Below, in pieces: positions 3,755 to 40,718 of a DNA stretch of 64,000 nt. Below the pieces are notes generated by a model that saw only the letters and a list, made by a program, of their open reading frames with translations, was not told the origin of the DNA and did not search any database. The position numbers and the translations under genes are program-made. Source of the DNA: Thiocapsa marina 5811. Lineage in GTDB: Bacteria > Pseudomonadota > Gammaproteobacteria > Chromatiales > Chromatiaceae. The stretch spans positions 62,001-126,000 of the forward strand of contig NZ_AFWV01000010.1 in assembly GCF_000223985.1 (NCBI RefSeq), read 5' to 3'. The first letter of the stretch is position 1, and every line of letters starts with the position of its first letter.

Positions 3755-4450
3755 TCAAACCGTCAGGTATTGCTTGACGAGATCCTCGGTCAGATCAGGC
3801 ATCGCCCCGCTCGCCATCAGCCGTCCGCGATCGAGGATGATGAAACGATCGGCGACGCGGCGGGCGAAGGGGAGCTTCTGCTCGACCAGGATGACGGTGA
3901 GGTTCAAGTCGGTCATCAGCCGACGGATGATGTCGCCGATCTCGTGGACGATGTTGGGCTGGATGCCTTCGGTGGGCTCGTCGAGGATCAGGAGTTTGGG
4001 GTCGATCACCAACGCCCGGCCGATGGCCAACTGCTGTTGCTGACCGCCTGAGAGGTCGCCGCCACGGCGCCCGAGCATCTCCTTGAGCACCGGGAAGAGC
4101 TCGAAGATGTAGCCGGGGACCTGCTTGGCGCGATCGGGCCGTGCGGCGAGACCGATGCGCAGATTCTCCTCGACGGTCAGCAGCGGGAAGATCTGACGGC
4201 CTTGCGGGACATAGCCGATGCCGAGCGGTGCGCGACGCTCGGCGGTGAGACGCGCGAGATCCTGCCCCTGATAGCTCAGGGATCCGGAGCGCAACGGGAG
4301 CAACCCCATGATGCATTGCATCAGGGTGGTCTTGCCGACCCCGTTGCGACCCATCACGCAGGTGCACTGACCCTGCGGGATCTCGACATCCAGGTCCCAG
4401 AGGGTGTGGCTCTCGCCGTAGAACTGGTTAAGGCCCGAAATCGCAAGCAT
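3755..4450 (-). CDS. urtE: Urea ABC transporter ATP-binding protein UrtE
   Basis: A 231-residue LivF-type ABC ATPase, one of the two nucleotide-binding subunits of the UrtABCDE urea importer on the cytoplasmic face of the membrane. Walker A GRNGVGKT is at 34-41, signature LSGGQ at 133-137 and Walker B LLILDEP at 153-159. The ending VKQYLTV is typical of UrtE. It belongs to the same minus-strand set as urtA-D but is cut off from urtD by about 850 bp holding a DUF29 gene, a paired palindromic element and a hairpin repeat. It is therefore uncertain whether it is still transcribed with urtABCD. Its ATG (4448-4450) abuts the end of the repeat unit, so the ribosome-binding region is inside repeat DNA. 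Confidence 0.93.
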   Translation of the reverse strand: MLAISGLNQFYGESHTLWDLDVEIPQGQCTCVMGRNGVGKTTLMQCIMGLLPLRSGSLSYQGQDLARLTAERRAPLGIGYVPQGRQIFPLLTVEENLRIGLAARPDRAKQVPGYIFELFPVLKEMLGRRGGDLSGGQQQQLAIGRALVIDPKLLILDEPTEGIQPNIVHEIGDIIRRLMTDLNLTVILVEQKLPFARRVADRFIILDRGRLMASGAMPDLTEDLVKQYLTV

Positions 4451-4635
4451 TGAATCGCGTCCGAAGTAATGATCGATGTCGTCGTGTGCCCCGCGTCGAT
4501 GGCTCAGGATGCCTTACAGTCGACGCGATTCAAGACAAAAGAAAAAATTCCCAAAACGCGTCCCGCTGAGGTCGCAGGCTGATTGGCCACCCAATCAAAT
4601 CAATCACATCGTATGCTGCACGAGACGCGTTGTAG
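4450..4635. repeat. Paired palindrome-ended element (two units plus AT-rich spacer)
   Basis: Unit 1 runs 4450-4534, from TTGAATCGCGTCC to GACGCGATTCAAG. A spacer rich in A (4535-4551) follows. Unit 2 runs about 4552-4635, from CAAAACGCGTCC to GAGACGCGTTGTAG. The architecture equals that of the elements at 39049-39245, 41870-42062 and 43714-43908, though the internal sequence differs. It begins at the first base of the urtE start codon. Confidence 0.7.
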
Positions 4636-4639
4636 GCCC

Positions 4640-4736
4640 GTAGGGTGGACGAGCGAGAGCGAAGTCCACCGAAATCGGCGCCGGCGCTGGTGGACTGCGC
4701 TGCGCTTGTCCACCCTACTGCGCTTGTCCACCCTAC
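4640..4736. repeat. GTAGGGTGGAC long-hairpin repeat
   Basis: Left arm 4640-4670 (GTAGGGTGGACGAGCGAGAG then CGAAGTCCACC) and right arm 4689-4718 (GGTGGACTGCGCTGCGCTTG then TCCACCCTAC) are near-perfect inverted copies around an ATCGGCGCCGGCGC centre. The last 18 bases of the right arm are repeated at 4719-4736. A single arm recurs at 3699. Repeats of this kind are common between genes in Chromatiales and related bacteria (from general knowledge); no coding sequence is involved. Confidence 0.8.
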
Positions 4737-4790
4737 AGTGCAAGGTCATCGCAGCGATCGGCGTTCTGCGCGCGGCCACCGAGACGCGTT

Positions 4791-5222
4791 CTAGCCGGGC
4801 AGGAAGGTGCCTCGGATCTGCGTCTGATCCCACGGGCAGCGCTCCGGAAAGGCATCGTAGTCCAAAGGCGTCTCGGCAACGGCGAGGTCGATCGCGTCCG
4901 GATAGGCGTCGCGGATGATCTCGTCGAATCTCGCGGCCAGGCTCGGATTTTCGTCCAGCAGCTTGGCGATCGCGCGGCGTTTGGTGTTGATGGTCGCGCT
5001 CCAGGATTTGCGGCTCGGATTCTCGGGCTGGTACTGCCATTTCAGAAGATGTCCCAGCAAGACCGCGAGCCGACTTTCCAATGCACGGCGTTCCTGCTTT
5101 CCCAAGTCCTCGATCTCCTTGACGAGGTGCATGACATCCAGTCGCCCGTACTGACCGGAACGCAGCAGGCTGGACTGCTCTCGCGACCAGGCATAGAAGT
5201 CTTGATCGTAGTCGGTCGTCAT
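4791..5222 (-). CDS. DUF29 family protein (copy 1)
   Basis: A 143-residue protein with the full DUF29 pattern: an N-terminal YDQDFYAWSREQSSLLRSG segment, DVMHLVKEIEDLGKQERRAL, LLGHLLKWQYQP, and a C-terminal half that ends with the family's FPERCPW-type motif. The Met at 5222 is chosen because the DUF29 family N-terminus starts there; the frame continues upstream as an antisense shadow of urtD. The family is common in cyanobacteria and purple sulfur bacteria, usually in many copies, and has no established function. It lies 77 bp downstream of urtD in the same direction and so may ride on the urt transcript. Two more copies are at 45241 and 56219. Confidence 0.85.
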   Translation of the reverse strand: MTTDYDQDFYAWSREQSSLLRSGQYGRLDVMHLVKEIEDLGKQERRALESRLAVLLGHLLKWQYQPENPSRKSWSATINTKRRAIAKLLDENPSLAARFDEIIRDAYPDAIDLAVAETPLDYDAFPERCPWDQTQIRGTFLPG

Positions 5223-5299
5223 CGCGTGGCCTCCGAGGGCGTTCGCGCGCATGGCGCGTCGTCTCGAACATGATACAGGAGAGGTGATCCCCATCGGGG

Positions 5300-6130
5300 C
5301 TATTCCCCCAGATAGACCTCGACCACGCGCGGGTCGTTCTGCACCTCGTCCATGCTGCCTTCGGCGAGGACCGCGCCCTGATGCAGAACGGTCACGCGCT
5401 TGGCGATGGAACGAACGAAATCCATGTCGTGCTCGACCACCACCACCGAATGCTTGCCCTCGAGCGAGAGCAGCAGCTCCGCCGTGCGGTCCATCTCCTG
5501 GTGGGTCATACCGGCGACCGGCTCGTCGACCAGCAGAAGATGAGGATCCTGCATCAGCAGCATGCCGATCTCGAGCCACTGTTTCTGGCCGTGCGAGAGT
5601 GCGCCGGCCTCGCGGTGGGTCTGCTCTTGGAGACCGATGATGCCCAGAACCTCGTGGATGCGGTCGCGTTGCTCGCCGCCGAGTCGGGCGAACAGGGTCG
5701 GGAAGACGCGTTTGTCGCCGGCCATCGCGAGCTCGAGGTTCTCGAAGACGCTGTGGGACTCGAAGACGGTCGGCTTCTGGAATTTGCGGCCGACCCCGAG
5801 CGCGGCGATCTCGGGCTCGGAGAGCCGCAGCAGATCGATGGTCCGCCCGAAATAGGCACTGCCTGTATCCGGACGCGTCTTGCCGGTGATGATGTCCATC
5901 ATGGTGGTCTTGCCGGCCCCGTTGGGGCCGATCACGCAGCGCAGCTCCCCGGCGTTGACGTAGAAGTTCAGGTTATTGATTGCCTTGAAGCCGTCGAAGC
6001 TGACGCTGACGTCTTCCAGATAGAGGATCACGCCCTGGCTGACGTCCAGATCCAGGTCCAGCATGGAGTACATGAAGCTCCACTGCCGGTCCTTGCGCAT
6101 GGACTCGCGTAATTGCTCGACCGGCGTCAT
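5300..6130 (-). CDS. urtD: Urea ABC transporter ATP-binding protein UrtD
   Basis: A 276-residue LivG-type ABC ATPase. Walker A GPNGAGKT is at 68-75, signature LSHGQ (the UrtD variant) at 178-182 and Walker B LLLVDEP at 198-204. An extra segment of about 35 residues precedes the ABC domain. The Met at 6130 overlaps the urtC stop by ATGA (6127-6130), so the two are translationally coupled; the same frame stays open far upstream but only as an out-of-frame shadow of urtC. With UrtE it powers the UrtBC membrane pore for high-affinity urea uptake, used as a nitrogen source. Confidence 0.94.
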   Translation of the reverse strand: MTPVEQLRESMRKDRQWSFMYSMLDLDLDVSQGVILYLEDVSVSFDGFKAINNLNFYVNAGELRCVIGPNGAGKTTMMDIITGKTRPDTGSAYFGRTIDLLRLSEPEIAALGVGRKFQKPTVFESHSVFENLELAMAGDKRVFPTLFARLGGEQRDRIHEVLGIIGLQEQTHREAGALSHGQKQWLEIGMLLMQDPHLLLVDEPVAGMTHQEMDRTAELLLSLEGKHSVVVVEHDMDFVRSIAKRVTVLHQGAVLAEGSMDEVQNDPRVVEVYLGE

Positions 6131-7257
6131 GGCGCGGCCTCCGCTCGAGGTCCGGCGGGGGATCGCGATCGTCGCCAGGTCCGAATCATGCCGACCAATC
6201 CGGCGATGCCCTTGGGCAGGAAGAGTGTGACGACGACGAAGAGCGCACCCAAGGCGAAGAGCCATGCCTCGGGGAAGGCGCCGGTGAAATAGGTCTTGCC
6301 GTAGTTCACCAGGATGGCGCCGATGACGGCGCCGTAGAGCGTGGCCCGCCCGCCGATCGCCACCCAGATCACCAGTTCGATCGAGTTGAGCGGCGAGAAC
6401 TCGCCCGGATTGATGATGCCGACCTGCGGGACATAGAGCGCCCCGGCCACCCCGGCGAGCATCGCCGAGAAGGTGAAGATGGCCAGCTTCACGCGATCGA
6501 CGCGGTATCCGATGAACCGGGTGCGGGCCTCGGCATCGCGGATTGCGACCGCCACACGTCCGAGCCGCGAGGTGACGATCCAGCGGCAGGCCAGATAGCC
6601 CAGCGCCAAGGCACCCGCCGAGGCAAGGAAGAGCCCGATCCGGGTTGCGTCGCTCTTCAGATCGAAGCCCAGGATGTCCTTGAAGTCGGTCAGGCCGTTG
6701 TTCCCGCCGAACCCCATCTCGTTGCGGAAGAAGGCCAGCATCAGGGCATAGGTCAGCGCCTGGGTCATGATGGAGAGATAGACACCGGTGACCCGTGAGC
6801 GGAAGGCGAGATAGCCGAAGATGAAGGCCAGGGTCCCGGGGACCAGGATGGCCATGAGCGCGGCAAACCAAAAGAGGTCGAAGCCGTGCCAGAACCAGGG
6901 CAGCTCGGGCCAGTTCAGGAAGACCATGAAGTCCGGCAGCACCGGATGGCCGTAGACACCACGATCGCCGATCTGGCGCATCAGATACATGCCCATTGCA
7001 TAACCGCCCAATCCGAAGAAGGCGGCATGACCCAGGCTCAGGATGCCCAGATAGCCCCACACCAGATCGACCGCAACCGCGAGCAAGGCGTAGGTCAGAT
7101 ATTTGCCGAGCAGGGTCACCGTGTAGGTGGAGACATGCCAGGGGCTGGACTCGGGGACGACCAGATTCAGGATCGGCACCACGACCGCGACAACCAGCAA
7201 GACCGCCAGCATCGCCTGTCCGCCTCTGTCACCCCTCATGATCCTGACCAAACCCAT
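6127..7257 (-). CDS. urtC: Urea ABC transporter permease UrtC
   Basis: A 376-residue LivM-type permease with about 8-10 membrane segments, the GYLGILSLGHAAFFGLGGYA block typical of UrtC and LivM, and a conserved cytoplasmic loop AIRDAEARTRFIGY. It ends with a positively charged tail (RRSRSP) on the cytoplasmic side. It pairs with UrtB to form the urea channel. It lies 100 bp downstream of urtB and overlaps urtD by four bases. Confidence 0.94.
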   Translation of the reverse strand: MGLVRIMRGDRGGQAMLAVLLVVAVVVPILNLVVPESSPWHVSTYTVTLLGKYLTYALLAVAVDLVWGYLGILSLGHAAFFGLGGYAMGMYLMRQIGDRGVYGHPVLPDFMVFLNWPELPWFWHGFDLFWFAALMAILVPGTLAFIFGYLAFRSRVTGVYLSIMTQALTYALMLAFFRNEMGFGGNNGLTDFKDILGFDLKSDATRIGLFLASAGALALGYLACRWIVTSRLGRVAVAIRDAEARTRFIGYRVDRVKLAIFTFSAMLAGVAGALYVPQVGIINPGEFSPLNSIELVIWVAIGGRATLYGAVIGAILVNYGKTYFTGAFPEAWLFALGALFVVVTLFLPKGIAGLVGMIRTWRRSRSPAGPRAEAAP

Positions 7258-7357: not shown

Positions 7358-9046
7358 TTACCCGTCGGCGGCACGTCCGCGTTGGGGAAAGAGCCCGCGC
7401 GGACGCTTCTGAATGAAGAGGATGATGAAGACCAACACCAGGATCTTCGCGAGCACGGCACCCGCCCAGGGCTCCATCAACTTGTTGGCAACACCCAAAG
7501 TCAAGCCGGCGACCAAGGTCCCCCAGAGATTGCCGACCCCGCCGAAGACCACGACCATGAAGGAGTCGATGATATAGGCCTGCCCCATATTGGGGCCGAC
7601 GTTGGTCAGCTGGGACAAGGCGACACCGGCGACACCCGCGACACCGGCACCCAGGCCGAATGTCAGTGCATCGACCCGTGCCGAGCGGACACCCATCGAG
7701 CGCGCCATCGCCCGGTTCTGGGCGACCGCCCGCACCTGTAGTCCCAGAGCAGTGCGCTTGAGGATGAGCAGCAAGGCCACGAAGACGATCAGCGAGAAGA
7801 ACAGGATGTAGAGCCGGTTGTAGGTCAAGGCCAAGGCAGGGTTGATCTGAAGCGCACCGCTCATCCAGGACGGATTCTGCACGGCCACGTTTTGGGCCGA
7901 AATCGTCGTACGTACCAGTTGCTGAAGGATCAGACTGATGCCGAAGGTGGCGAGCAATGTCTCGAGCGGTCGACCGTAGAGGAAGCGGATCACGGTGCGC
8001 TCGATCAGGATGCCCAGCAACCCAGCGACGACGAAGGCCGCCGGGATCGCGACAAACAGGGAATAGTCGAGGAATCCGGGCATCGCCTGCTGCACGAGAT
8101 AGGTCGTGTAGGCCCCGATCATGATCAGCTCGCCATGGGCCATGTTGATGACGCCCATGACACCGAAGGTGATCGCCAGGCCGATGGCCGCGAGCACCAA
8201 GACCGACCCGAGACTGAGTCCGAAGAAGAGCGTCTCCGCCGCCGCGTTGAGCTTGAGCCGTTGCTCGGTTGCGGCGAGCGCGCGCTCGGCGGCAACACGC
8301 ACCTGTGGGTCGGACTCGACGTTCAGCAACGTGCTCAGGGCGTTGCGCGATTCAGGATAGAGACTTCCCGCAAGGGTCTCGACCGAGGCGAGCCGGACCG
8401 CAGGGTCCTCGTCGCGCAGGCTCGCGAGCGCCAAACTCAGGTCGAGATAGTCGCGCACGCGCTGATCGTCCTCGCGCCCGAGCTGCTCGCGGATCGCCTC
8501 GATCACCATCGGGTCGGCGTCCCCCAGCATCTGCTGCGCGGCTTCGAGCCGAATGGCCGGATCGGGACTCGCCAGGGTGAGGGCGGCGATCGCCGTACGC
8601 AGTTGGTTGCGCATCCGGTTGTTGATCGTGATCTTCTTGACGGCGCCGCGCTCGACCTCGCCGAGGTCGCTGCCGTGGAAAGCGTCGGTGAGCCGATAGC
8701 CGCCGGGGGCGGGCGTGACCAACACGGGCCGCCGATCGTCCTTGCGGGCGTAGAGGTCACCGGCCAAGAGCGCTTGGAAGAGCCCTGCCGCGCGGGGGTC
8801 ACCCCCGATGGCGATCGCCTCGACTGCGGCCTGCTTCACGTCGAACGAGCGGTCGCTCAGATCGATCAAGGCCGAATCGATCTCATCGGCCAGACTGCCG
8901 AGCGGCAGCCACATCAGAATCAGGAAACCATAGACGAGGCCAAGGTCCGCAAGGCGCGGGAGTCGTCGCGATCGGCTAGTCGGACTCAGGGGCATCTTGA
9001 TACTCGCTGCGGTCGGAGGCTGTCTGGTAGCAGCCCATTGGTTCAT
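7358..9046 (-). CDS. urtB: Urea ABC transporter permease UrtB with N-terminal periplasmic domain
   Basis: A long LivH-type permease (562 residues from the GTG-free Met at 9046; 545 from a second Met at 8995, which gives a more normal signal-peptide n-region RSRRLPR). Neither start has a strong Shine-Dalgarno sequence. After a hydrophobic leader comes an extracytoplasmic helical-repeat region of about 220 residues (HEAT-like: DPAIRLEAAQQML, DEDPAVRLASVETLAG), a known feature of UrtB proteins. It is followed by the permease core with INMAHGELIMIGAYTTY and a RAVAQNRAMARSMG cytoplasmic loop. The long form matches the usual UrtB length. It is the second gene of the urt set, separated from urtA by about 280 bp that include a repeat unit. 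Confidence 0.93.
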   Translation of the reverse strand: MNQWAATRQPPTAASIKMPLSPTSRSRRLPRLADLGLVYGFLILMWLPLGSLADEIDSALIDLSDRSFDVKQAAVEAIAIGGDPRAAGLFQALLAGDLYARKDDRRPVLVTPAPGGYRLTDAFHGSDLGEVERGAVKKITINNRMRNQLRTAIAALTLASPDPAIRLEAAQQMLGDADPMVIEAIREQLGREDDQRVRDYLDLSLALASLRDEDPAVRLASVETLAGSLYPESRNALSTLLNVESDPQVRVAAERALAATEQRLKLNAAAETLFFGLSLGSVLVLAAIGLAITFGVMGVINMAHGELIMIGAYTTYLVQQAMPGFLDYSLFVAIPAAFVVAGLLGILIERTVIRFLYGRPLETLLATFGISLILQQLVRTTISAQNVAVQNPSWMSGALQINPALALTYNRLYILFFSLIVFVALLLILKRTALGLQVRAVAQNRAMARSMGVRSARVDALTFGLGAGVAGVAGVALSQLTNVGPNMGQAYIIDSFMVVVFGGVGNLWGTLVAGLTLGVANKLMEPWAGAVLAKILVLVFIILFIQKRPRGLFPQRGRAADG

Positions 9047-9235
9047 CGGCGAAATCAGAGGTCGACGCGGCTTGCAGACGCGTCGAGCAGGCCGGACGAG
9101 GGCTTACCGAACCGGGCCATCTTTGGAAGAAACATTCCGACTGCGCGTGTCCAAAAGAACTGCGGCGAATTCATTCACCGCTGCACGCCGGTGGATCCCG
9201 TCCACGAAATCACCTAAACCGATCCCGAGAATCAC

Positions 9236-9323
9236 TTGAACCGCGTCCACCGCCGCGCAGACGGGCTCACATCAGGGTGAGCCCGCAACTCGCACTGCGC
9301 ATCACTCGCCGGACGCGGTTCAA
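9236..9323. repeat. Palindrome-ended intergenic unit between urtA and urtB
   Basis: An 88-bp unit beginning TTGAACCGCGTCC and ending GGACGCGGTTCAA, with an internal hairpin (GGGCTCAC / GTGAGCCC around 9263-9282). It belongs to the same family as the other border elements and ends 5 bases before the urtA stop codon. The internal hairpin could reduce transcription from the highly expressed binding-protein gene into urtB. Confidence 0.7.
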
Positions 9324-9328
9324 CTGTC

Positions 9329-10630
9329 CTATTGCGCCTGAGCGCCGAGACAGGTCTTGGTCACCGTATTGAAGTTGCCGCACATGACCGGAGGGGTCCA
9401 ATCGGCGGTGAGGTCCTTGGAGCCTTCGAGGAAGTCCGACCAAGCGTCGCCCGGGACCTCTTCTTCGGTTTCCCAGACCACGGCGAACTGCCCGTCTTCC
9501 TGAATCTCTCCGATCAGCACCGGTTTGGTGATGTGATGATTCGGCAGCATCGTGGCGGTTCCGCCCGTGAGGTTCTTGGTCTCCAGGCCGATGATCGCGG
9601 CCCCCACCGCGTCGGGATCCGTTGTGCCGGCCTTCTCGACCGCTTGCACCCACAGATCGAAGCCGATCTTGTGCGCCTCCATCGGGTCGTTGGTCACGCG
9701 CTTGTCGTTCTTGGTGAAGCCGTGCCAGGTCTCGATAAAGGTCGCGTTGGCCGGGTCGTCGACGCTCATGAAATAGTTCCAGGCGGCGAGATGGCCGACC
9801 AGCGGCTTGGTGTCGATGCCCGAGAGTTCTTCCTCGCCGACCGAGAAGGCGACGACCGGGATATCCTCGGCGGAGACGCCCTGGTTGCCCAGCTCTTTAT
9901 AAAAGGGGACGTTGGCGTCGCCGTTGATCGTCGAGACCACGGCGGTCTTCTTGCCTTCGGAGCCGAAACGCTTGATATCGGAGACGATGGACTGCCAATC
10001 GGAGTGACCGAACGGCGTGTAGTTGATCATGATGTCCTCTTCCGCCACGCCATTCTGCTTGAGGTAGGCTTCGAGGATCTTGTTGGTGGTCCGCGGATAG
10101 ACATAATCAGTGCCGGCGAGCACCCAACGCTCGACGCCGAGCTCGTCTTTCAGGTAGTCGACGGCCGGAATCGCTTGCTGATTGGGCGCGGCACCCGTGT
10201 AGAAGACGTTTTTCGAGGACTCCTCGCCTTCGTACTGCACCGGGTAGAAGAGTAAGCCGTTGAGCTCTTCGAAGACAGGCAACACGGATTTCCTGGACAC
10301 CGAGGTCCAGCACCCGAAGACCACGGCGACCTTGTCCTGTGTCAGCAGCTCGCGCGCCTTCTCGGCGAACAGCGGCCAATCCGACGCGGGGTCGACGACG
10401 ACGGCCTCGAGCTGCTTGCCGAGCAGTCCGCCCTTCTTGTTCTGCTCGTCCACCAGCATCAAGACGGTGTCTTTCAGTGTCGTTTCGCTGATGGCCATGG
10501 TGCCCGAGAGCGAGTGCAGGACCCCGACCTTGATGGTGTCGTCCGCGGCCTGAGCCACGGAGCCGGCGGCGAGGCCAACGGCCAGGCCCGTGCCGAGCAA
10601 GATCGATTTGATCGGGTCGCGTCTAAGCAT
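9329..10630 (-). CDS. urtA: Urea ABC transporter substrate-binding protein UrtA
   Basis: A 433-residue periplasmic binding protein of the type-I fold (LivJ/AmiC-like). The Met at 10630 begins a signal peptide (residues about 1-28, MLRRDPIK then a hydrophobic stretch ending SVAQA-ADD). The mature start IKVGVLHSLSGTMAISE and the blocks FGCWTSVSRKSVLPVFE, YEGEESSKNVFYTGA, GTDYVYPRT and NDPMEAHKIGF are characteristic of UrtA. It captures urea in the periplasm for UrtBCDE. It is first in the set, downstream of a sigma-54 promoter with an NtrC-type site, which fits nitrogen control. An in-frame extension upstream of the Met is non-coding. Confidence 0.95.
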   Translation of the reverse strand: MLRRDPIKSILLGTGLAVGLAAGSVAQAADDTIKVGVLHSLSGTMAISETTLKDTVLMLVDEQNKKGGLLGKQLEAVVVDPASDWPLFAEKARELLTQDKVAVVFGCWTSVSRKSVLPVFEELNGLLFYPVQYEGEESSKNVFYTGAAPNQQAIPAVDYLKDELGVERWVLAGTDYVYPRTTNKILEAYLKQNGVAEEDIMINYTPFGHSDWQSIVSDIKRFGSEGKKTAVVSTINGDANVPFYKELGNQGVSAEDIPVVAFSVGEEELSGIDTKPLVGHLAAWNYFMSVDDPANATFIETWHGFTKNDKRVTNDPMEAHKIGFDLWVQAVEKAGTTDPDAVGAAIIGLETKNLTGGTATMLPNHHITKPVLIGEIQEDGQFAVVWETEEEVPGDAWSDFLEGSKDLTADWTPPVMCGNFNTVTKTCLGAQAQ

Positions 10631-10703
10631 ACGTTCTGGCTCCTGTTGATCGTGAGTCACGTGAGTGATGGGTTCGCGGACGAGGACGTCCGGCAGCACA
10701 CCA

Positions 10704-10719
10704 AGCAAAATGCCGGCCA
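10704..10719 (-). promoter_or_regulatory. Sigma-54 (RpoN) promoter of urtA
   Basis: Read on the minus strand the sequence is TGGCCGGCATTTTGCT. It has the invariant GG (10718-10717) and GC (10706-10705) exactly 10 nt apart, as in the -24/-12 consensus TGGCACG-N4-TTGCT. Transcription would begin near 10694, leaving a leader of about 64 nt before the urtA ATG. Its position behind an NtrC-type site strengthens the call. Confidence 0.75.
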
Positions 10720-10771
10720 CAAGAATCGACTCGTGTTTGGGGGCCCCGCGTGACCTTCCACGGGAGAGAGC

Positions 10772-10786
10772 GCACTGCATTGGTGC
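10772..10786. promoter_or_regulatory. NtrC-type enhancer site upstream of urtA
   Basis: GCACTGCATTGGTGC matches the NtrC dyad GCAC-N6-GGTGC, with the same spacing as the classical glnA enhancer site. It is centred about 85 bp upstream of the predicted sigma-54 start of urtA, the normal distance for NtrC. Only one full site is seen. Confidence 0.65.
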
Positions 10787-10915
10787 GAGCGACGAAGAAA
10801 ACGGCGCGCTCGGCGACCCTCCACGCTCCAAGATCGAACAACCTGGATCTAGTTCGGAATCTGTACTATCGTCGTCGCCGCAAAACCACATAAATATCGG
10901 TAAAGGAGACGGAGA

Positions 10916-11362
10916 ATGCACAAACTTCTGCTTGTAGCGGCGGCAGTGTTGATGACGGGCAACGCGATCGGCGCCGATATGGCTTCGCCGGACGACGCGA
11001 AGGCCATGTCCCAGAAGGCGCAGGCGGCCGTCAACGAGATGGGAAGCGAGCAGGCCTTTGCGCTCTTCGCCGCTTCGGACGGCGGCTTCCAAGATCGCGA
11101 CCTCTATGTCTTCTGCATGGACATGGACGGCGTGATGCTGTCGCACGCGATCAAACCGGAGCTGGTCGGGAAGAATCTTCTGGATTTCGACAAGTACGGC
11201 GATACGCTCTTCAAGAACATGATCGCCGTTGCGAGCAGCACGGGCGAGGGTTGGGTCGACTACAACTGGCCCTATCCGGGCACCGAAGAGATTCGCGAGA
11301 AGACCAGCTATGTGATGACGAACGACCAGGGCTTCTTCTGCGGAGTCGGAGCCTACAAGTAG
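10916..11362 (+). CDS. Secreted single-Cache-domain protein
   Basis: A 148-residue protein with a signal peptide (residues 1-20, MHKLLLVAAAVLMTGNAIGA) and no other membrane segment. The rest is a single Cache domain of the sCache_2 type: QKAQAAVNEMGSEQAFALF, the DLYVFCMDMDGVMLSHAIKPELVGKN core, and GWVDYNWPYPGTEEIREKTSYV near the C-terminus. Such domains normally sense small ligands in chemoreceptors and kinases; here the domain is free in the periplasm with no output module. The start is secured by AAAGGAGA just upstream (10902-10909). It diverges from urtA across 285 bp. A ligand-binding or accessory sensing role is an inference; the link with urea is only positional. Confidence 0.85.
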   Translation: MHKLLLVAAAVLMTGNAIGADMASPDDAKAMSQKAQAAVNEMGSEQAFALFAASDGGFQDRDLYVFCMDMDGVMLSHAIKPELVGKNLLDFDKYGDTLFKNMIAVASSTGEGWVDYNWPYPGTEEIREKTSYVMTNDQGFFCGVGAYK

Positions 11363-11378
11363 CGCGTTTCGAGCCTAA

Positions 11379-11403
11379 GGCATGCCGCGCATAGCGGCAT
11401 GCC
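11379..11403. terminator. Strong hairpin between convergent genes
   Basis: GGCATGCCGC and GCGGCATGCC form a perfect 10-bp stem with a GCATA loop, placed between the stop of the Cache gene (11362) and the stop of the convergent xre gene (11408). There is no clear T-tract on either strand, so it may act as a bidirectional pause or mRNA-end protector rather than a classical intrinsic terminator. Confidence 0.5.
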
Positions 11404-11407
11404 GACG

Positions 11408-11743
11408 CTAGTCCGCGGCGAAGCCGGACTGGTCCGAAGCAACCTTGGCGATCGTCTCCTTACCGCGCTCGTCGGCCTGCCGAAAATACTCGACAAGCTC
11501 GCGCTCACGCGCCGAGAGCGGATCGGTGTCGTCAAGACACAGAAGGTACGTCGGGGTCACGGTGCCGAGCGCAACCGCAAGCTCTTGAGCCTCTTCGAGA
11601 CCCATTCGGCGAATCCCCTGCTCATAGTTGCTGATGCGCGATTTGGAGAGCGATTCGGTACGACCGGAAAGCTCCGATAAGCTCAGCTTCTGATCTTGGC
11701 GGGCAGCGCGTAAGCGCTGCCCGATGCGTTTTGTGAGATCCAT
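11408..11743 (-). CDS. XRE-family helix-turn-helix regulator
   Basis: A 111-residue protein. Residues about 5-65 are a Cro/C1-type HTH (IGQRLRAARQDQKLSLSELS, then SLSKSRISNYEQGIRRMGLEEAQELAVAL), followed by a short acidic region and a helical tail (DPLSARERELVEYFRQADERG) found in many phage-repressor-like or stress regulators. The Met at 11743 is chosen because the HTH begins right after it; 20 upstream codons in frame add nothing recognisable. Residues 10-16 are encoded by a 9-bp inverted repeat (GGGCAGCGC / GCGCTGCCC), which could be chance. Target genes are unknown; there is no adjacent toxin gene. Confidence 0.85.
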   Translation of the reverse strand: MDLTKRIGQRLRAARQDQKLSLSELSGRTESLSKSRISNYEQGIRRMGLEEAQELAVALGTVTPTYLLCLDDTDPLSARERELVEYFRQADERGKETIAKVASDQSGFAAD

Positions 11744-11910
11744 AATTGTTTGGCTCTTCTCACCTGATGTCAGTGGTATTCGGTTGGTTTTTAGTGTACA
11801 CAAATCCTGTTAGGACCTGGCACATTCGCGATGCGCGCGAGGGCAAAAGACACATGATGTCGCCCTCGAAAAGCCTCCGGTGCCCTCCTGTGCGGCCGAA
11901 AGCCGAGCCA

Positions 11911-12891
11911 TCATCCCAGAAAAGCATCTTCCCATTCTTCGACATCGCCCACGGTTTGAGGTTGCGGTTCTACGATCCGGTCCGCAAACGCTCGATCAAG
12001 CGTCTTGATGAAACACTTGGTTTGGGGCGACAGAAATTTCCCGCGTCTCTGTACAATGCCGTAGCTGCGCTTCGGGAAATACTGAGATAGCGGGATTCTA
12101 CTCAAGTTTTCGTCACCCGTCAGACAGACATCCGTAACGATCGAGATTCCGAGGCCCAATTCGACATATTTCTTGATGACCTCCCAGCCGCCAGCCTCCA
12201 AAGTGACCCGATAGGCCAGGCTGTGTTGCTTGAACACCAGATCGACCATCCGCCAGGTGCTGAGATGACGCGGCGGAAGGATCAAGCCGTAGGGTGCGAT
12301 CTCCTCGAGGGTCACCGATTCCCGACCCGCGAGGGGATGATCCATCGGCGTGATCAGCGTCGGCTGATAGGTGACGAACGGACGGTAGGTGATGTCGTCC
12401 GGTACATCCATCATGGAGCCTACGGCGAGGTCCACCTCGTCGGCGCGCAGCATTGCCAGACCGTCGCGGCCGGTCACGTTGTGCATCTTCAGCTCGATTC
12501 CCGGATACTGATCCACGAAGGCGCGTACCGGGTCAGGCAGGATATAGAGGATGGTCGACTCGCCGGCGGCGACGTTCAGCACACCGCGATCGACCCGGCC
12601 GCATTGCGTCGCGAAGGCCTCGTGCAGCTTGTCCATACCCTCGACCAGAGGCTCGGCCATCTGGAAGAGCAAATCGCCTTCGGGGGTCAGCTTGATCTTC
12701 GGGCCGCGCCGCTCGAACAAGACCGTGCTGAACTCGCGCTCCAGCGCTTGAATCTGCAAAGACACGGTGGGTTGACTGAGAAAGATCTTCTCGGCCGCAG
12801 CGCTGACGCTGCCGGTGCGCGCCGCGTGGCAAAAAGCCCGCAGTTGTTTGAGTCGATTCTGTTTATAGTGAATTTGGGATCCTGAGCCCAT
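11911..12891 (-). CDS. LysR-family regulator, CysB-like
   Basis: A 326-residue LysR-type regulator. The winged HTH covers residues about 12-72 (LKQLRAFCHAARTGSVSAAA, SQPTVSLQIQALEREF, LFERRGPKIKLTPEG) and a periplasmic-binding-like effector domain covers 95-300 (GVLNVAAGESTILYILPDPV, LGLGISIVTDVCL). The Q-R-L-K-Q-L-RAF start and overall length are reminiscent of CysB/Cbl-type regulators of sulfur metabolism, but the effector cannot be read from sequence. It is transcribed away from the tat/his block and has no obvious target operon next to it, so it may be a global regulator. Confidence 0.85.
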   Translation of the reverse strand: MGSGSQIHYKQNRLKQLRAFCHAARTGSVSAAAEKIFLSQPTVSLQIQALEREFSTVLFERRGPKIKLTPEGDLLFQMAEPLVEGMDKLHEAFATQCGRVDRGVLNVAAGESTILYILPDPVRAFVDQYPGIELKMHNVTGRDGLAMLRADEVDLAVGSMMDVPDDITYRPFVTYQPTLITPMDHPLAGRESVTLEEIAPYGLILPPRHLSTWRMVDLVFKQHSLAYRVTLEAGGWEVIKKYVELGLGISIVTDVCLTGDENLSRIPLSQYFPKRSYGIVQRRGKFLSPQTKCFIKTLDRAFADRIVEPQPQTVGDVEEWEDAFLG

Positions 12892-13164: not shown

Positions 13165-14364
13165 TCAAGCCTCGTCGAGCTGATTAAGGATGTTGCGCGC
13201 CACGCGGCGTTGATCGGCATCGCCCTCCTCCAGAACCTCGTAGAGCACCGTACGCGCGGCGAAGGTGCTGCCGAGCTCGCGCAGTCGGTTCGCCCGCCGA
13301 ATCTTCTCCTCGACCGAGTTGATTGCGGGGGACGTGGTGCGCGCCGTGTCTGCCGGGTGCGAGTCAGGGTTTCGAGGCGTCTTCGAGATCTCTTCGGCCT
13401 CGATCAGATCCAGCTCGGCCTCCATCTCGGATTCGCTTAACGGCTGCCAGCGATCCGGATCGTCGAAGTGCGGATCGAGATCGCGCCCGATCTCCCGCAG
13501 CTCGGGCCGCGGCGTCACTCGGCCCGGGCTCGATCCGCCGGCCGGACCCTCGGGGGCTGACGGCGATGACGAAAATGCGCTGCCCGAGGCGTCCGGATCC
13601 GGATCCTCGTCGGTGACCGTCGCGCGCCGCCCCACCAGGACCTTCGAAAAGACAATCCCCAGCTCGAACAGCAACCACATGGGCACGGCAAGCAAGGTCT
13701 GGGAGATGACATCCGGCGGCGTCAGGAGCATACCCACGACAAAGGCACCGACGATCACGTAAGGACGCTTCGAGGCGAGGGCGGCCGGCGTCGTGATGCC
13801 GGCCGCCACCAGCAAGATGGTGGCGATCGGGATCTCGAAGGCGATTCCGAAGGCGAAGAACAAGGCCAGCACGAAGTCCAGATAGGCCGAGATGTCCGTC
13901 ATCATCGCCACGCCATCCGGCGTGGACGCCGACAGAAACGCGAAGATCAGCGGGAAGACGACGAAGTAGGCGAACGCGACACCGACGTAGAACAGGATGA
14001 TGCTCGAGATCAGCAGCGGCGTCGCCAACCGCTTTTCGTGCTTGTAGAGCCCGGGCGCGATGAACCCCCAGAACTGGTAGAGCAGGAAGGGCATCGCCAG
14101 GAACACCGCAGCGATCAGGGCCAACTTGAAAGGCGTCAGAAAGGGCGCGGCCACCTGGGTGGCGATCATCGTATTGCCCTCCGGCAACTGCGCCATCAAG
14201 GGCGCCGCCACGAAGGTATAGATCTCGTTGGCGAACGGGAAAAGCGCCAGGAACACCACGAAGATGGCGATCGACATGCGGATCAGACGATCGCGCAGCT
14301 CGATCAAATGGGAGACGAAAGGCTGTTCGGCACCCGGATCGTCGGGCTGCATCGCGGGGGACAT
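13165..14364 (-). CDS. tatC: Twin-arginine translocase subunit TatC with long C-terminal tail
   Basis: A 399-residue protein. Residues 1-247 are a complete TatC: six membrane segments, [14 protein letters not shown] at the N-terminus, [14 protein letters not shown], and FGIAFEIPI. TatC binds the twin-arginine signal peptide and with TatB forms the receptor of the folded-protein exporter. E. coli TatC ends near residue 258; here a 152-residue cytoplasmic tail follows. It is acidic and Pro/Ser-rich (248-349) and ends with a helical segment (350-397: [40 protein letters not shown]) resembling the C-terminal domain of FimV. The Met at 14364 is preferred over an upstream one at 14424. It is last of tatA-tatB-tatC. 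Confidence 0.93.
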
Positions 14365-14475
14365 GGGTGATGTTCTCGTCGCAGGTTGTATGGCGGATCC
14401 GCGAGCGGACCGGGCGAGCGACACGTCCGTCGGCTTGCCCGACAGGCGTGGGTCGGGTCGCCGGATCGACCCCGA

Positions 14476-37566: not shown

Positions 37567-39048
37567 TCAGCGTTTGCCGGAGCGCCGGCGGTCGAGTCGC
37601 GCCACGAATTCGCCGATCAAGCGGGCGTAGAGTTGATCGCCGAGCACCTTGTCTTCCACACCTGCATCCAGGCTGGGGTTGTCGTTGACCTCGATCACGA
37701 CCGGGCCGGCGGGCGTCTCCTTGAGATCGACCCCGTAGAGCCCGTCGCCGATCAGATCGGCCGCCTTCAGCGCCGTCTTCAGCACCGCGGGCGGGACGAC
37801 CTCGACCGGCAGGGTCTCGAACCCGCCTTGCTCGTGACGACCGTCGCTCTCGTGCTTGACGATCTGCCAGTGATCTCGGCTCATCAGATACTTGCAGGCA
37901 TAGAAGGGCTGGCGACCCAGGATACCGATGCGCCAATCGAAGGGCGTGTAGAGATATTCCTGCGCCAGGATCAGATCGGACTCCTTGAAGAGCTTGCCGG
38001 CGATCCGCGTCAACCCGGCGCGATCCTCCGCGCGGAAGACCCCGCGCGAGAAGGAGCCCTCGGGGATCTTGAGCACGATCGGATAGCCGATCTGCGCCTC
38101 GGCGTCCATCAGGTTCTCCTTGCGCAACACCAGGGTCTTGGGCCGCGGGATACGATGCGCGGCCAGCAGCTCGGCGAGATAGACCTTGTTGGTACAGCGC
38201 AGGATCGAGTCCGGGTCGTCGATCACGACCATGCCCTCGCTGTCGGCCTTCTTGGCGAAGCGGAAGGTGTGGTGACCGATACGCGTGGTCTCGCGGATAA
38301 AGAGCGCGTCGTACTCGGCAAGCCGGCTGTAGTCCTTGCGCTGGATCAGCTCGACGTTGACGCCGAGCGACTTGCCGGCCTTCACGAACCGTTGCAGCGC
38401 CTTGCCGTCGGAGGGCGGCAGCTCCTCGGCCGGGTCGTGCAGCACGGCGAGGTCGTAGCGGTAGGACAGGCGTGCACGCGGCTGGCGCCAACGCTGAGAG
38501 AGGTAACCCTCGAGCGCCGCAAACAGAGGCCCCTCCCCGTCCGACGCGACCGCGGCCAACGGCAGGGCCTTGATGGCCCCGATGCGCCAAGTGCCTTGGC
38601 GGCGAAACTCCACACGCAGGATCGGGCAGCGGAAGGTCTCGAAGATCTCGCGCGCGAGCGGTTGCAGCTCCTTCACGTCGCACTGGCCGAAACAGATGGT
38701 CAGCTCGTAGGCCGTCGGCGCCAAGGCCGAGGTCTTGCGTCGACCGAGCAGACGCTGCACCAATCCATCCAGCTCCTCGGTAGCCAGGCTGTAGAGCTCG
38801 CGGCTGGAGAGCTCCTGGATGGTCCTCACGCTGGGAATGACCTTGTGACCACGCGCCTCGGCGAGCAGGGAGCAGTAATAGCCGACCGAGAGATAGCGGT
38901 AACTGCGGCATAGGTTGATCACGCGCAGATCACGCTTGGACGCCAGCTCGCCGCCCGCGAGATAGTCGCGCGCGGTCACCACGGGCAGACGCGGAAAACC
39001 CGCCTTCCAATCGCCTTGCTGCTCCACCAACAACAGGTGCTCAGCCAT
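37567..39048 (-). CDS. RimK-like ATP-grasp ligase with RLAN N-terminal domain
   Basis: A 493-residue protein in two parts. Residues about 1-160 match the RLAN (RimK-like ATP-grasp N-terminal) domain, including a conserved NLCRSYRYLSVGYYCSLLAE stretch. Residues about 200-485 are a RimK-type ATP-grasp ligase: NKVYLAELLAAHRIPRPKTL, ATP-binding Lys327 in PIVLKIPEGSFSRGV, QEYLYTPFDWRIGIL, and metal-binding EVNDNPSLDAG (453-463). ATP-grasp enzymes of this group join an amino acid or peptide to a carboxylate through an acyl-phosphate. The family is predicted, from comparative genomics, to take part in unusual peptide synthesis or modification; no member's product is known to me. Its neighbour is a GNAT/C39-peptidase fusion, a repeated partnership. 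The start codon touches a repeat element. Confidence 0.85.
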   Translation of the reverse strand: MAEHLLLVEQQGDWKAGFPRLPVVTARDYLAGGELASKRDLRVINLCRSYRYLSVGYYCSLLAEARGHKVIPSVRTIQELSSRELYSLATEELDGLVQRLLGRRKTSALAPTAYELTICFGQCDVKELQPLAREIFETFRCPILRVEFRRQGTWRIGAIKALPLAAVASDGEGPLFAALEGYLSQRWRQPRARLSYRYDLAVLHDPAEELPPSDGKALQRFVKAGKSLGVNVELIQRKDYSRLAEYDALFIRETTRIGHHTFRFAKKADSEGMVVIDDPDSILRCTNKVYLAELLAAHRIPRPKTLVLRKENLMDAEAQIGYPIVLKIPEGSFSRGVFRAEDRAGLTRIAGKLFKESDLILAQEYLYTPFDWRIGILGRQPFYACKYLMSRDHWQIVKHESDGRHEQGGFETLPVEVVPPAVLKTALKAADLIGDGLYGVDLKETPAGPVVIEVNDNPSLDAGVEDKVLGDQLYARLIGEFVARLDRRRSGKR

Positions 39049-39245
39049 TTAAATCGCGCTCGTTCGTGGGGTCTATGTCGCGTTGCATTTCGGTTCCGGG
39101 TTGATCCAACCAACGCGCCTCGGCCCGGGCGCGATTTAAAGAACAAAAAATAAAAATCCTAAATCGCGTCAGTGACGACGGTGGTCGCTGCCGGGTCGTT
39201 CCGATCCAGACGCGAACGATGCATGTCGCACCGGACGCGATTTAG
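39049..39245. repeat. Paired palindrome-ended element between the ligase and GNAT/peptidase genes
   Basis: Unit 1 (39049-39139, TTAAATCGCGC ... GCGCGATTTAA), an A-rich spacer (39140-39158) and unit 2 (39159-39245, CTAAATCGCGTC ... GACGCGATTTAG). It exactly fills the space between the start of the RLAN ligase and the stop of the GNAT/peptidase gene, and supplies that stop (39242-39244). Confidence 0.75.
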
Positions 39246-40375
39246 CAGGTGACGAGGACCACCGCCTGCAATCCGACCCGACCATAGCGGGCCATTCGGC
39301 TGAATTCGTCGCGGCGAATCGGCATATCGATCGAGTCCAGCGTGGTCTCTCCGTTGGCGTAGTCGACGTAGGGGTCGTGGACATAGACGAAGTGCTCGTC
39401 GAAGCCGGTGATCACGACCCAATGGGGGAATTTCTCGCGGTAGATACGGTAGGAGCTGATCAAGACCAGCGGCACCGAGCCAGCATCCCAACGCTGCTGG
39501 AGATCGTCGACGCTGAGCGTGCCCTTGTGGACCGGGATACCCAAGCGTTGCGCCTCCGCCAGCATATCCTCGTGGACGAGGCGCATGACCTCCTTCTTCT
39601 CCGGGCTGCGCACCGAGTCGACAAGCGGCACGCCCGGATCGTTCACGAAGACCTCCACCGCGAAGCCGCGGGACTGCGCGGACAGCGCCAGCCCCAACGG
39701 GCCGCAGCCGCCGTGTCCGGAGGTCATGAAGATGGTCGTGGACTCGCGCCAGATCCGCAGCTCCAAGGTTCGATTGAGCTCGAGGCTCGGACGCAGCGCC
39801 TGCATCGCCATCATCAGCGACGAAGAGCCGCAGGTGAAATCGAGCGTCTGCTCGTAGAAGGGTACGCGCTTGAGCTCCGGCTTGAGACCAGGCGAGAGCG
39901 TCTTCTCGTAGCGCAGCGCCTCCATGTGGTCTTCGTAGTAATCCGAGAGCACGCCGAAGCGCCGATAACCCGCGCGCTCGAACAACGCCTGCGAGGCGCG
40001 ATTGTCGCGTCGGATCTCGAGACGCAAGTAGGCGCGCTCCTGCTCCCAGGCCGCCACCTCCGCCGCCTCGACGAGTGTGCGACCGACTCCCCTGCCCCGT
40101 GCCCGCGCGGCGACCGCGATCGAATAGAGCCGCGCCACCGAGGTCGCTCGACTGAAGAGCACCATGACGTAGCCCAGCAGATCGCCTCCTGCATCCTCGG
40201 CAACCAGTGTGCGCGCCTGCGCACGGGTCAACATGTAGCGGAACTGGCGACGGGTCAGGCGGTCGCTCTGAAAGCTTGCAGCCTCGAGCCGAAGCAACGC
40301 ACCCATGTCGGCAAGCGCCGCAGGACGCAGGCGTACAGGCGGGGGCGCAGTGTCGCTGAGCGTGTGGGTGGACAC
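39242..40375 (-). CDS. GNAT acetyltransferase fused to a C39-like cysteine peptidase
   Basis: A 377-residue fusion. Residues 14-155 are a GNAT domain (LRPAALADMGALLRLE, acetyl-CoA loop RARGRGVGRTLVEAA at 91-105, NRASQALFERAGYRRFG). Residues about 165-370 are a papain-like C39-type peptidase with Gln176 and Cys182 in EQTLDFTCGSSS, His318 in PHWVVITGFD and Asp334 in VYVHDPY, so the catalytic set looks complete. C39 domains usually cut double-glycine leader peptides, but here there is no ABC exporter. Together with the RLAN-RimK ligase downstream (same strand, separated only by a repeat pair) it suggests a pathway that builds, acetylates and trims a peptide. No small precursor gene is seen nearby. 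Confidence 0.88.
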   Translation of the reverse strand: MSTHTLSDTAPPPVRLRPAALADMGALLRLEAASFQSDRLTRRQFRYMLTRAQARTLVAEDAGGDLLGYVMVLFSRATSVARLYSIAVAARARGRGVGRTLVEAAEVAAWEQERAYLRLEIRRDNRASQALFERAGYRRFGVLSDYYEDHMEALRYEKTLSPGLKPELKRVPFYEQTLDFTCGSSSLMMAMQALRPSLELNRTLELRIWRESTTIFMTSGHGGCGPLGLALSAQSRGFAVEVFVNDPGVPLVDSVRSPEKKEVMRLVHEDMLAEAQRLGIPVHKGTLSVDDLQQRWDAGSVPLVLISSYRIYREKFPHWVVITGFDEHFVYVHDPYVDYANGETTLDSIDMPIRRDEFSRMARYGRVGLQAVVLVTC

Positions 40376-40718
40376 GGGGATTCGGTATCGGTGTGGGGAC
40401 TGGCGGGAGCCGCGAAGGCGGGATAGAGTCGGCGAAATCTACAGGTCGCGCAGAAAAATGCAAGGCGTCGACCGCCCTCCAGATTTCGGTAGGGGCGACT
40501 GAAGTCGTCCCTACCGAAATCTGGAGGCATGCACAATCGGGATGACTTCCGGACATCGCCTCGGAAGCCGGGCGGCGCGAAGCCGCCGTGCCCAGCGCCG
40601 CAGGACCCGAGCGCATGCACGCGTGCCCCTGGACCGTGACCAGCGGAGCGAATCCAAATTCACTTTATTGGGCGACGATCCCGATCACCTCGAGCGTCGC
40701 CACTCAGCGGAGCACCTC
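40376..40718. other. Non-coding divergent spacer of 343 bp
   Basis: The region between the GNAT/peptidase gene and argE holds the 52-bp near-perfect palindrome at 40476-40527 and otherwise no convincing coding sequence; short open frames here lack family resemblance. An AT-richer patch (CAAATTCACTTTATTGG, around 40653-40669) may hold the argE promoter, and GGAG lies 8 bp before the argE ATG. Confidence 0.6.
40476..40527. repeat. 25-bp-arm palindrome (hairpin/cruciform)
   Basis: CCTCCAGATTTCGGTAGGGG (continuing CGACT) and its inverse copy are separated by only two bases, with one G/A difference between arms. The centre is CGACTGAAGTCG. The GGGGCGACTTCAGTCGCCCC theme is a common dispersed palindrome in proteobacteria and cyanobacteria (general knowledge). 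No T-tract follows, so it is not a classical terminator. Confidence 0.85.

Follow-up and report, generated by a model that had tools for sequence, protein, structure and literature searches.

A near-constant pair of RLAN-RimK ligase and GNAT, with an optional papain-like domain, in Thiocapsa marina and other Pseudomonadota

Gene pairs coding for an RLAN-RimK ligase and for a protein with a GNAT and a papain-like domain are said to be among the systems for peptide or metabolite synthesis that were predicted by Iyer et al. in 2009 (Mol Biosyst 5:1636). An extract of a later source describes frequent fusions of the papain-like family DUF3335 to GNAT domains and refers to the 2009 study for a possible role in peptide ligation or acetylation (PMC10318531). 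Other systems come close to this design, as outlined in extracts of their sources: in the Ngg/AsnO pathway of N-acetylglutaminylglutamine amide (NAGGN), a GNAT and an ATP-grasp enzyme make an N-acetyl dipeptide, and there is a peptidase gene too (PA3459-PA3461; PMC8070244); RimK/RimB sets an ATP-grasp ligase against a protease of its product in the glutamylation of ribosomal protein S6 (PMC11957791); and the rloABC operon of Pseudomonas aeruginosa combines an ATP-grasp protein with a dedicated peptidase, the product being unknown (PMC12239564). Here we examine a ligase and GNAT-DUF3335 pair in a 64,000-nucleotide stretch of the Thiocapsa marina 5811 genome (contig NZ_AFWV01000010.1, positions 62,001 to 126,000), referred to below as the window. 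Both families are already catalogued and the pair is a member of a predicted, uncharacterised kind; what our analysis adds is the distinction between the parts that are constant, the ligase and the GNAT, and the part that is optional, DUF3335.

The two open reading frames (ORFs) were confirmed on the minus strand, with the gene for the GNAT-DUF3335 fusion (39242-40375, 377 aa, GTG start) lying upstream of the ligase gene (37567-39048, 493 aa, ATG start) and 193 nt between them. Two adjacent minus-strand genes for a ligase and a GNAT/peptidase fusion had been proposed in a first-pass annotation of this DNA, and both the ORFs and Pfam agree: the ligase matches RLAN (PF14401) with 175 bits (cut-off 25) and RimK (PF08443) with 41 bits (cut-off 21), and the fusion matches DUF3335 (PF11814) with 295 bits (cut-off 25) and Acetyltransf_1 with 54 bits (cut-off 20.7). 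With its RLAN domain over the gathering score and fused to an ATP-grasp domain, the ligase is a member of the RLAN RimK-like ligases; the peptidase domain is a member of DUF3335, with the papain-type Cys and His. The GC content at third codon positions (0.86 for the ligase, 0.83 for the fusion) fits real genes. RLAN and DUF3335 have one match each in the window's genome, which is of the Thiocapsa type, and among named records the closest are four from Thiocapsa, whose ligases share 97-98% identity with the window's.

The first-pass annotation had made its reading hang on the two proteins co-occurring and staying adjacent across genomes, which they do. Our main sample consists of 398 Pseudomonadota genomes drawn evenly, which are related and not independent. 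RLAN was found in 72 of them, reaching 41 of 213 genera, and DUF3335 in 58; 57 genomes have both, the DUF3335 genome lacking RLAN being G008 (Fisher p 1e-53, without phylogenetic correction). The distance between the two is at most 6 kb in 55 of these 57 genomes, the exceptions being G193 and G006, and the linked pairs are codirectional with the GNAT-peptidase first (29) or the ligase first (5), divergent (18) or convergent (3). In a set of 56 genomes related to the window's, RLAN occurs in 23, every one of which matches DUF3335 too (G435 weakly, under the cut-off); in G444, which lacks RLAN, DUF3335 is matched weakly. A named collection of 80 loci, which are the best ligase matches and hence not a fair sample, has a match to the GNAT-peptidase protein in 79; the exception is L029, where the ligase lies 312 bases from a contig end. 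That two unrelated genes should be neighbours by descent only is scarcely credible on these numbers: a single window could not exclude it and many of the sampled genomes are related, but the linkage data already contradict it, since the linkage survives four relative arrangements, the locus titles span gamma- and alphaproteobacteria and one Spirochaete metagenome-assembled genome (MAG), and three Pseudomonas-like genomes carry two RLAN copies, each having its own GNAT. One locus has a layout unlike that of its relatives: in L007 (502-6001; Thiobaca trueperi), only a DUF3335 fragment was seen, about 5.5 kb from the ligase at the edge of the locus, and a gene for a response-regulator/HD protein lies directly upstream of the ligase.

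The partner that stays with the ligase is the GNAT rather than the peptidase. A family-specific GNAT adjoins the ligase in 70 of the 72 RLAN genomes (in one, G354, at 1.4 kb). By class, there are 52 genomes with the fusion beside the ligase, 2 with the fusion and a separate GNAT match (genuine in G348, apparently a shadow frame in the other), 16 with a stand-alone GNAT, and G201 and G193, the former with its locus cut by a contig end. Fifteen of the 16 stand-alone-GNAT genomes are without any DUF3335 match genome-wide, and the last, G006, has an orphan fusion elsewhere. A permissive profile search of 31 GNAT-only loci gave no DUF3335 match better than E 0.16, those of the named collection being searched over the locus stretch and not the whole genome. 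Each of the three Pseudomonas-like genomes with two RLAN ligases has one with the fusion and one with the GNAT alone. On the ligase tree, the label fusion or GNAT-only needs at least 9 changes, 6 of them forced by well-supported branches. The trees are quick runs without bootstrap. They start from a 128-row set that leaves out L001, L002 and L112-L140 as repeats of other loci and has at least one genome twice (L057 and L084); five rows (L007, L020, L029, L061 and L086) were dropped because their GNAT or fusion is truncated, far off or missing, and thinning at 92% ligase identity within each label reduced the other 123 to 75. A mirror-tree correlation (Spearman 0.58, 75 pairs) lacks a control protein, and we do not count it as evidence. 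The linkage data thus point to ligation and acetylation as the core and to the cysteine domain as an accessory; of the synthesis, N-acetylation and trimming that the first-pass annotation had suggested, the first two stand as the core, while trimming is reduced to an option, its domain being absent at 16 of 72 loci. In G348 (L167, 3719-7786), the two forms coexist: the ligase has a stand-alone GNAT as its immediate neighbour and, some 1 kb beyond, a GNAT-DUF3335 fusion.

Within the ligase, the RLAN domain covers aa 26-170 (38539-38973, minus strand; E 8e-52), and the pre-ATP-grasp and ATP-grasp part covers about aa 198-490 (37579-38457, minus strand). The positions called catalytic in the ligase, the GNAT and the peptidase domain are those that we take to be so from family knowledge. 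In the ligase, none of the 128 sequences departs from K288, K327, D441, E453, N455, D456, N457 and P458, in line with the intact metal/ATP site of the first reading. The RimK alpha-L-glutamate ligase model TIGR00768 matches aa 238-462 with 87 bits, under its cut-off of 143.4. The AlphaFold2 model of the ligase (pLDDT 83.9), made from an alignment of the window protein with 42 of the 80 ligase loci, has as its best Foldseek matches ArgX-LysW/Glu/ADP, RimK and LysX (3vpb and 3vpd included), some of these being structures with LysW and RpsF. For the RLAN part itself, no relative of solved structure came up by sequence, since none of the PDB profile matches extends to the N-terminal side of residue 236. 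A reading of RLAN as a duplicated pre-ATP-grasp domain was rejected (hhalign probability below 1%).

The GNAT domain of the fusion (aa 15-160; 39896-40333, minus strand) resembles N-alpha-acetyltransferases. The best Foldseek matches to the AlphaFold2 model of the fusion (pLDDT 90.7; alignment of the window protein with 37 fusion loci) are the acetyltransferase CBU0801, Ard1 and Escherichia coli RimI, and a profile search of PDB sequences gave Ard1, RimI-type proteins and NAA10 as best matches; the RimI model TIGR01575 stays under its cut-off (71 bits versus 86.4), the fold being close nonetheless. It has to be considered whether this domain is instead a second peptide ligase that works by aminoacyl transfer, but this is improbable given that both its sequence and its fold group with N-alpha-acetyltransferases that use acetyl-CoA and that Glu120 is kept in 122 of 123 sequences.

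The DUF3335 domain, a papain-like cysteine peptidase or acyltransferase, covers aa 171-375 (39251-39865, minus strand). The first-pass annotation had seen Cys182, His318 and Asp334 in the window protein; these are present, and Gln176 beside them makes the papain-type set complete. Gln176, Cys182 and His318 are invariant in 92 of 92 fusions, and position 334 carries Asp in 85 of them and Glu in the remaining 7. A loss of the catalytic residues in most family members, which the annotation had named as a ground for dropping its proposal, was not seen; they are kept in nearly all members examined. Its label "C39-like" holds at the level of the clan and fails for the bacteriocin type, with Peptidase_C39 (PF03412) at 12 bits versus a cut-off of 22. 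The 50 Foldseek matches listed for the fusion are acetyltransferase matches and do not place the papain-like half by fold; the best profile match of this half to solved structures is a weak one to the BtrH-like family (E 0.003 over 47 positions). A search for phage carriage of the GNAT-DUF3335 fusion found no match. The control genome of Methanosarcina acetivorans has a DUF3335 match over the cut-off and none to RLAN, and the domain thus exists outside the pair too. The Escherichia coli control genome matches neither family. In G197 (L160), two more DUF3335 proteins, at 4133-5194 and 13189-14397, are without a recognised family GNAT profile.

An ATP-grasp enzyme together with a clan-CA peptidase is a familiar combination in graspetide and bacteriocin loci. 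By this analogy, the ligase would modify a precursor, as in the maturation of ribosomally synthesised and post-translationally modified peptides (RiPPs), and the papain-like domain would remove its leader. Such a role is highly improbable here: among 2921 small ORFs within 1.2 kb at 99 loci, no small frame is common to at least three clades, which argues against a linked ribosomal precursor, the bacteriocin-type C39 model falls short (see above) and the peptidase domain is dispensable. The widest small frame reaches two clades, all 15 frames listed come from Chromatiaceae and Competibacter-type genomes, and those of the window that are common to two clades run antisense to argE. For linked frames at least, the nearby precursor gene expected of a graspetide or other RiPP locus is missing. 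The first reading had likewise seen no obvious precursor gene and no ABC exporter, and there is no ABC exporter among the four window neighbours scanned.

No third gene accompanies the pair at a constant place. This candidate was rejected, since ten neighbour clusters reach at least three clades and none is at a fixed position. A response-regulator cluster spreads furthest, over 17 loci in 7 clades and with 6 members no more than 1.5 kb away, and Pfam identifies one protein of the cluster as a response regulator/HD protein; the others include frames antisense to argE and genes of the resistance-nodulation-division (RND) type. In the named collection, 16 of the 80 loci (Chromatiaceae, Thioalkalivibrio and Competibacter-type MAGs) have a divergent argE of 61-97% identity next to the pair, as against none of 23 further loci from other families, so that its place there is limited to some Gammaproteobacteria. 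Genes for RND-type adaptors or pumps turn up in 16 of 103 loci without a fixed position, a label that rests on Pfam for three proteins. Such adaptor and pump genes lie close to the ligase in L050, L054 and L071 (about 8760-12660), L163 (9881-13001) and L045 (6702-10858). No LysW-like carrier was recognised among the neighbours conserved in at least three clades, the LysW family itself not having been searched for.

The explanation that we favour, and regard as plausible without calling it probable, is that a two-enzyme core builds and N-acetylates a short non-ribosomal peptide or a peptide tail, the papain-like domain being an optional hydrolase or acyltransferase. The core would probably be cytosolic. 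At the cost of ATP, the RLAN ATP-grasp ligase would couple an amino acid to a small acceptor (an amino acid or a short peptide) at the acceptor's free carboxylate, in the manner of RimK or LysX, and the GNAT would acetylate the alpha-amino end to give a short non-ribosomal N-acetyl-peptide, a principle like that of NAGGN synthesis carried out by other families. The papain-like domain that most members carry on the GNAT may hydrolyse this product or transfer its acyl group; it would be dispensable and perhaps serve in turnover or maturation. We infer the order of the reactions, their location, the role of the peptidase and the small size of the product, a small N-acetyl-peptide being favoured over a protein tail because the pair is accompanied by neither a precursor gene nor a target gene. 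A broader proposal, which we make tentatively, is that the RLAN ligase and the N-alpha-acetyltransferase constitute a near-obligate, widespread pathway to a new class of N-acetylated oligopeptides, in which the papain-like domain would be a repeatedly lost acyltransferase or recycling enzyme and not a leader peptidase.

It is also conceivable, and in our view rather unlikely, that the system modifies protein tails, with the ligase extending the C-terminus of one or a few cellular proteins, the GNAT capping either a protein N-terminus or the residue that was added, and the peptidase domain taking the tail off again. The protein N-alpha-acetyltransferases among the best GNAT matches and the LysW and RpsF structures among those of the ligase would suit this role, and an extract on RimK/RimB offers a precedent for a ligase with an opposing protease (PMC11957791), but no conserved target gene was seen near the pair, the presumed eraser is absent at the 16 of 72 loci mentioned above, and the cut-off of the RimK-specific TIGR00768 was missed (87 versus 143 bits).

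Several observations weigh against a small capped peptide. By the predicted models, both enzymes have their closest fold relatives among proteins that act on protein or polypeptide ends (Ard1 and RimI; RimK on RpsF; ArgX and LysX on LysW), which suits a protein tail at least as well. The NAGGN synthetase model TIGR03103 barely matches the window GNAT (29.9 bits versus a cut-off of 569), and a comparison across genomes gave no significant link between this synthetase and RLAN (10 of 72 versus 27 of 326, p 0.18). At the position that, by an alignment by eye, we presume to be that of RimI Tyr115, the window GNAT has Phe132 where most relatives have Tyr (31 of 31 GNAT-only proteins and 58 of 92 fusions; 34 of 92 fusions have Phe). 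The ligase is without a GNAT nearby in G193, whose fusion sits on another contig, and without an adjacent one on the P. aeruginosa plasmid pZYPA1927. The GNAT tree (144 columns; short and poorly resolved) disagrees with the ligase tree in giving 4 changes of label, 2 of them forced, so that the frequency of domain loss or GNAT replacement is not settled. Finally, the neighbours are not wholly random, as the counts for argE and the RND-type genes indicate, and a transporter may belong to the system in some lineages; these neighbours could matter locally and are not part of the shared core. The pZYPA1927 locus (L161; ligase at 4902-6491) has no GNAT among its 13 annotated features, with pagP and glutamate/aspartate transporter genes near.

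In the window, the neighbours of the pair are the divergent argE, a Zn-peptidase gene and an RsmB/F-type methyltransferase gene. The argE identity, already given in the first reading, is borne out by NF003474 (556 bits versus a cut-off of 460). Between argE and the GNAT-peptidase gene lies a 25-nt inverted repeat (40476-40527; 96% complementary, 2-nt spacer), whose core motif occurs nowhere else in the genome and, among 190 loci, only in two that cover the same place. No RNA families were found near the locus and no sigma-70-like promoters at it, and its terminator-like sites are at the frequency expected by chance.

Among the papers listed on RimK, RLAN and ATP-grasp enzymes, none names RLAN. 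No study of this ligase-GNAT pair was recognised by title in the literature searched, no title on the pair came up under guessed P. aeruginosa locus tags, and no product of an RLAN system turned up. RLAN is present in 72 of 398 genomes with conserved active sites, and if its product is a small capped peptide, current maps of pseudomonads and purple sulphur bacteria lack a cytosolic metabolite. The simplest two-enzyme systems for seeking it are those of a ligase and a GNAT only, which our data show to occur with no peptidase domain.

The comparison with NAGGN synthesis is one of principle and not of family. The NAGGN enzyme is one fused protein of another family, whereas here there are two separate genes; membership of the pair in the NAGGN family was rejected, as it falls short of the TIGR03103 cut-off, shows no significant genome linkage and has the true synthetase elsewhere in its own genome. 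That full synthetase (C52:207854-209479, 883 bits) indicates that the organism probably makes the NAGGN osmoprotectant too. G006 is a suggestive exception, though a single case: its orphan GNAT-DUF3335 gene (L162, 10508-11704) follows at 1.7 kb from a complete NAGGN cluster of amidotransferase, synthetase and M42 peptidase (TIGR03104, TIGR03103 and TIGR03106, all over cut-off), and the RLAN ligase, elsewhere in that genome, has its own stand-alone GNAT.

RimABK is alike in joining a RimK-type ligase to a protease, which is a retropepsin there and papain-like here, and differs in having neither the extra RLAN domain nor the GNAT, as well as in the TIGR00768 cut-off, which our ligase misses. The rloABC operon, as described in the extract of its source, has a secreted retropepsin and an inactive-transglutaminase membrane protein, neither of which is among the domains found here; there are no retropepsins among the scanned window proteins, no family search for retropepsins near RLAN having been made. 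LysX and ArgX with LysW, which are among the best structural matches to our ligase, lack the RLAN domain that is added here. The closest counterpart is the system attributed to Iyer and colleagues, with the same families (PF14401, and PF11814 with a GNAT), the same gene pair and the same linkage, to which our study adds the measurement of the GNAT as the near-constant partner of the ligase and of DUF3335 as the optional one.

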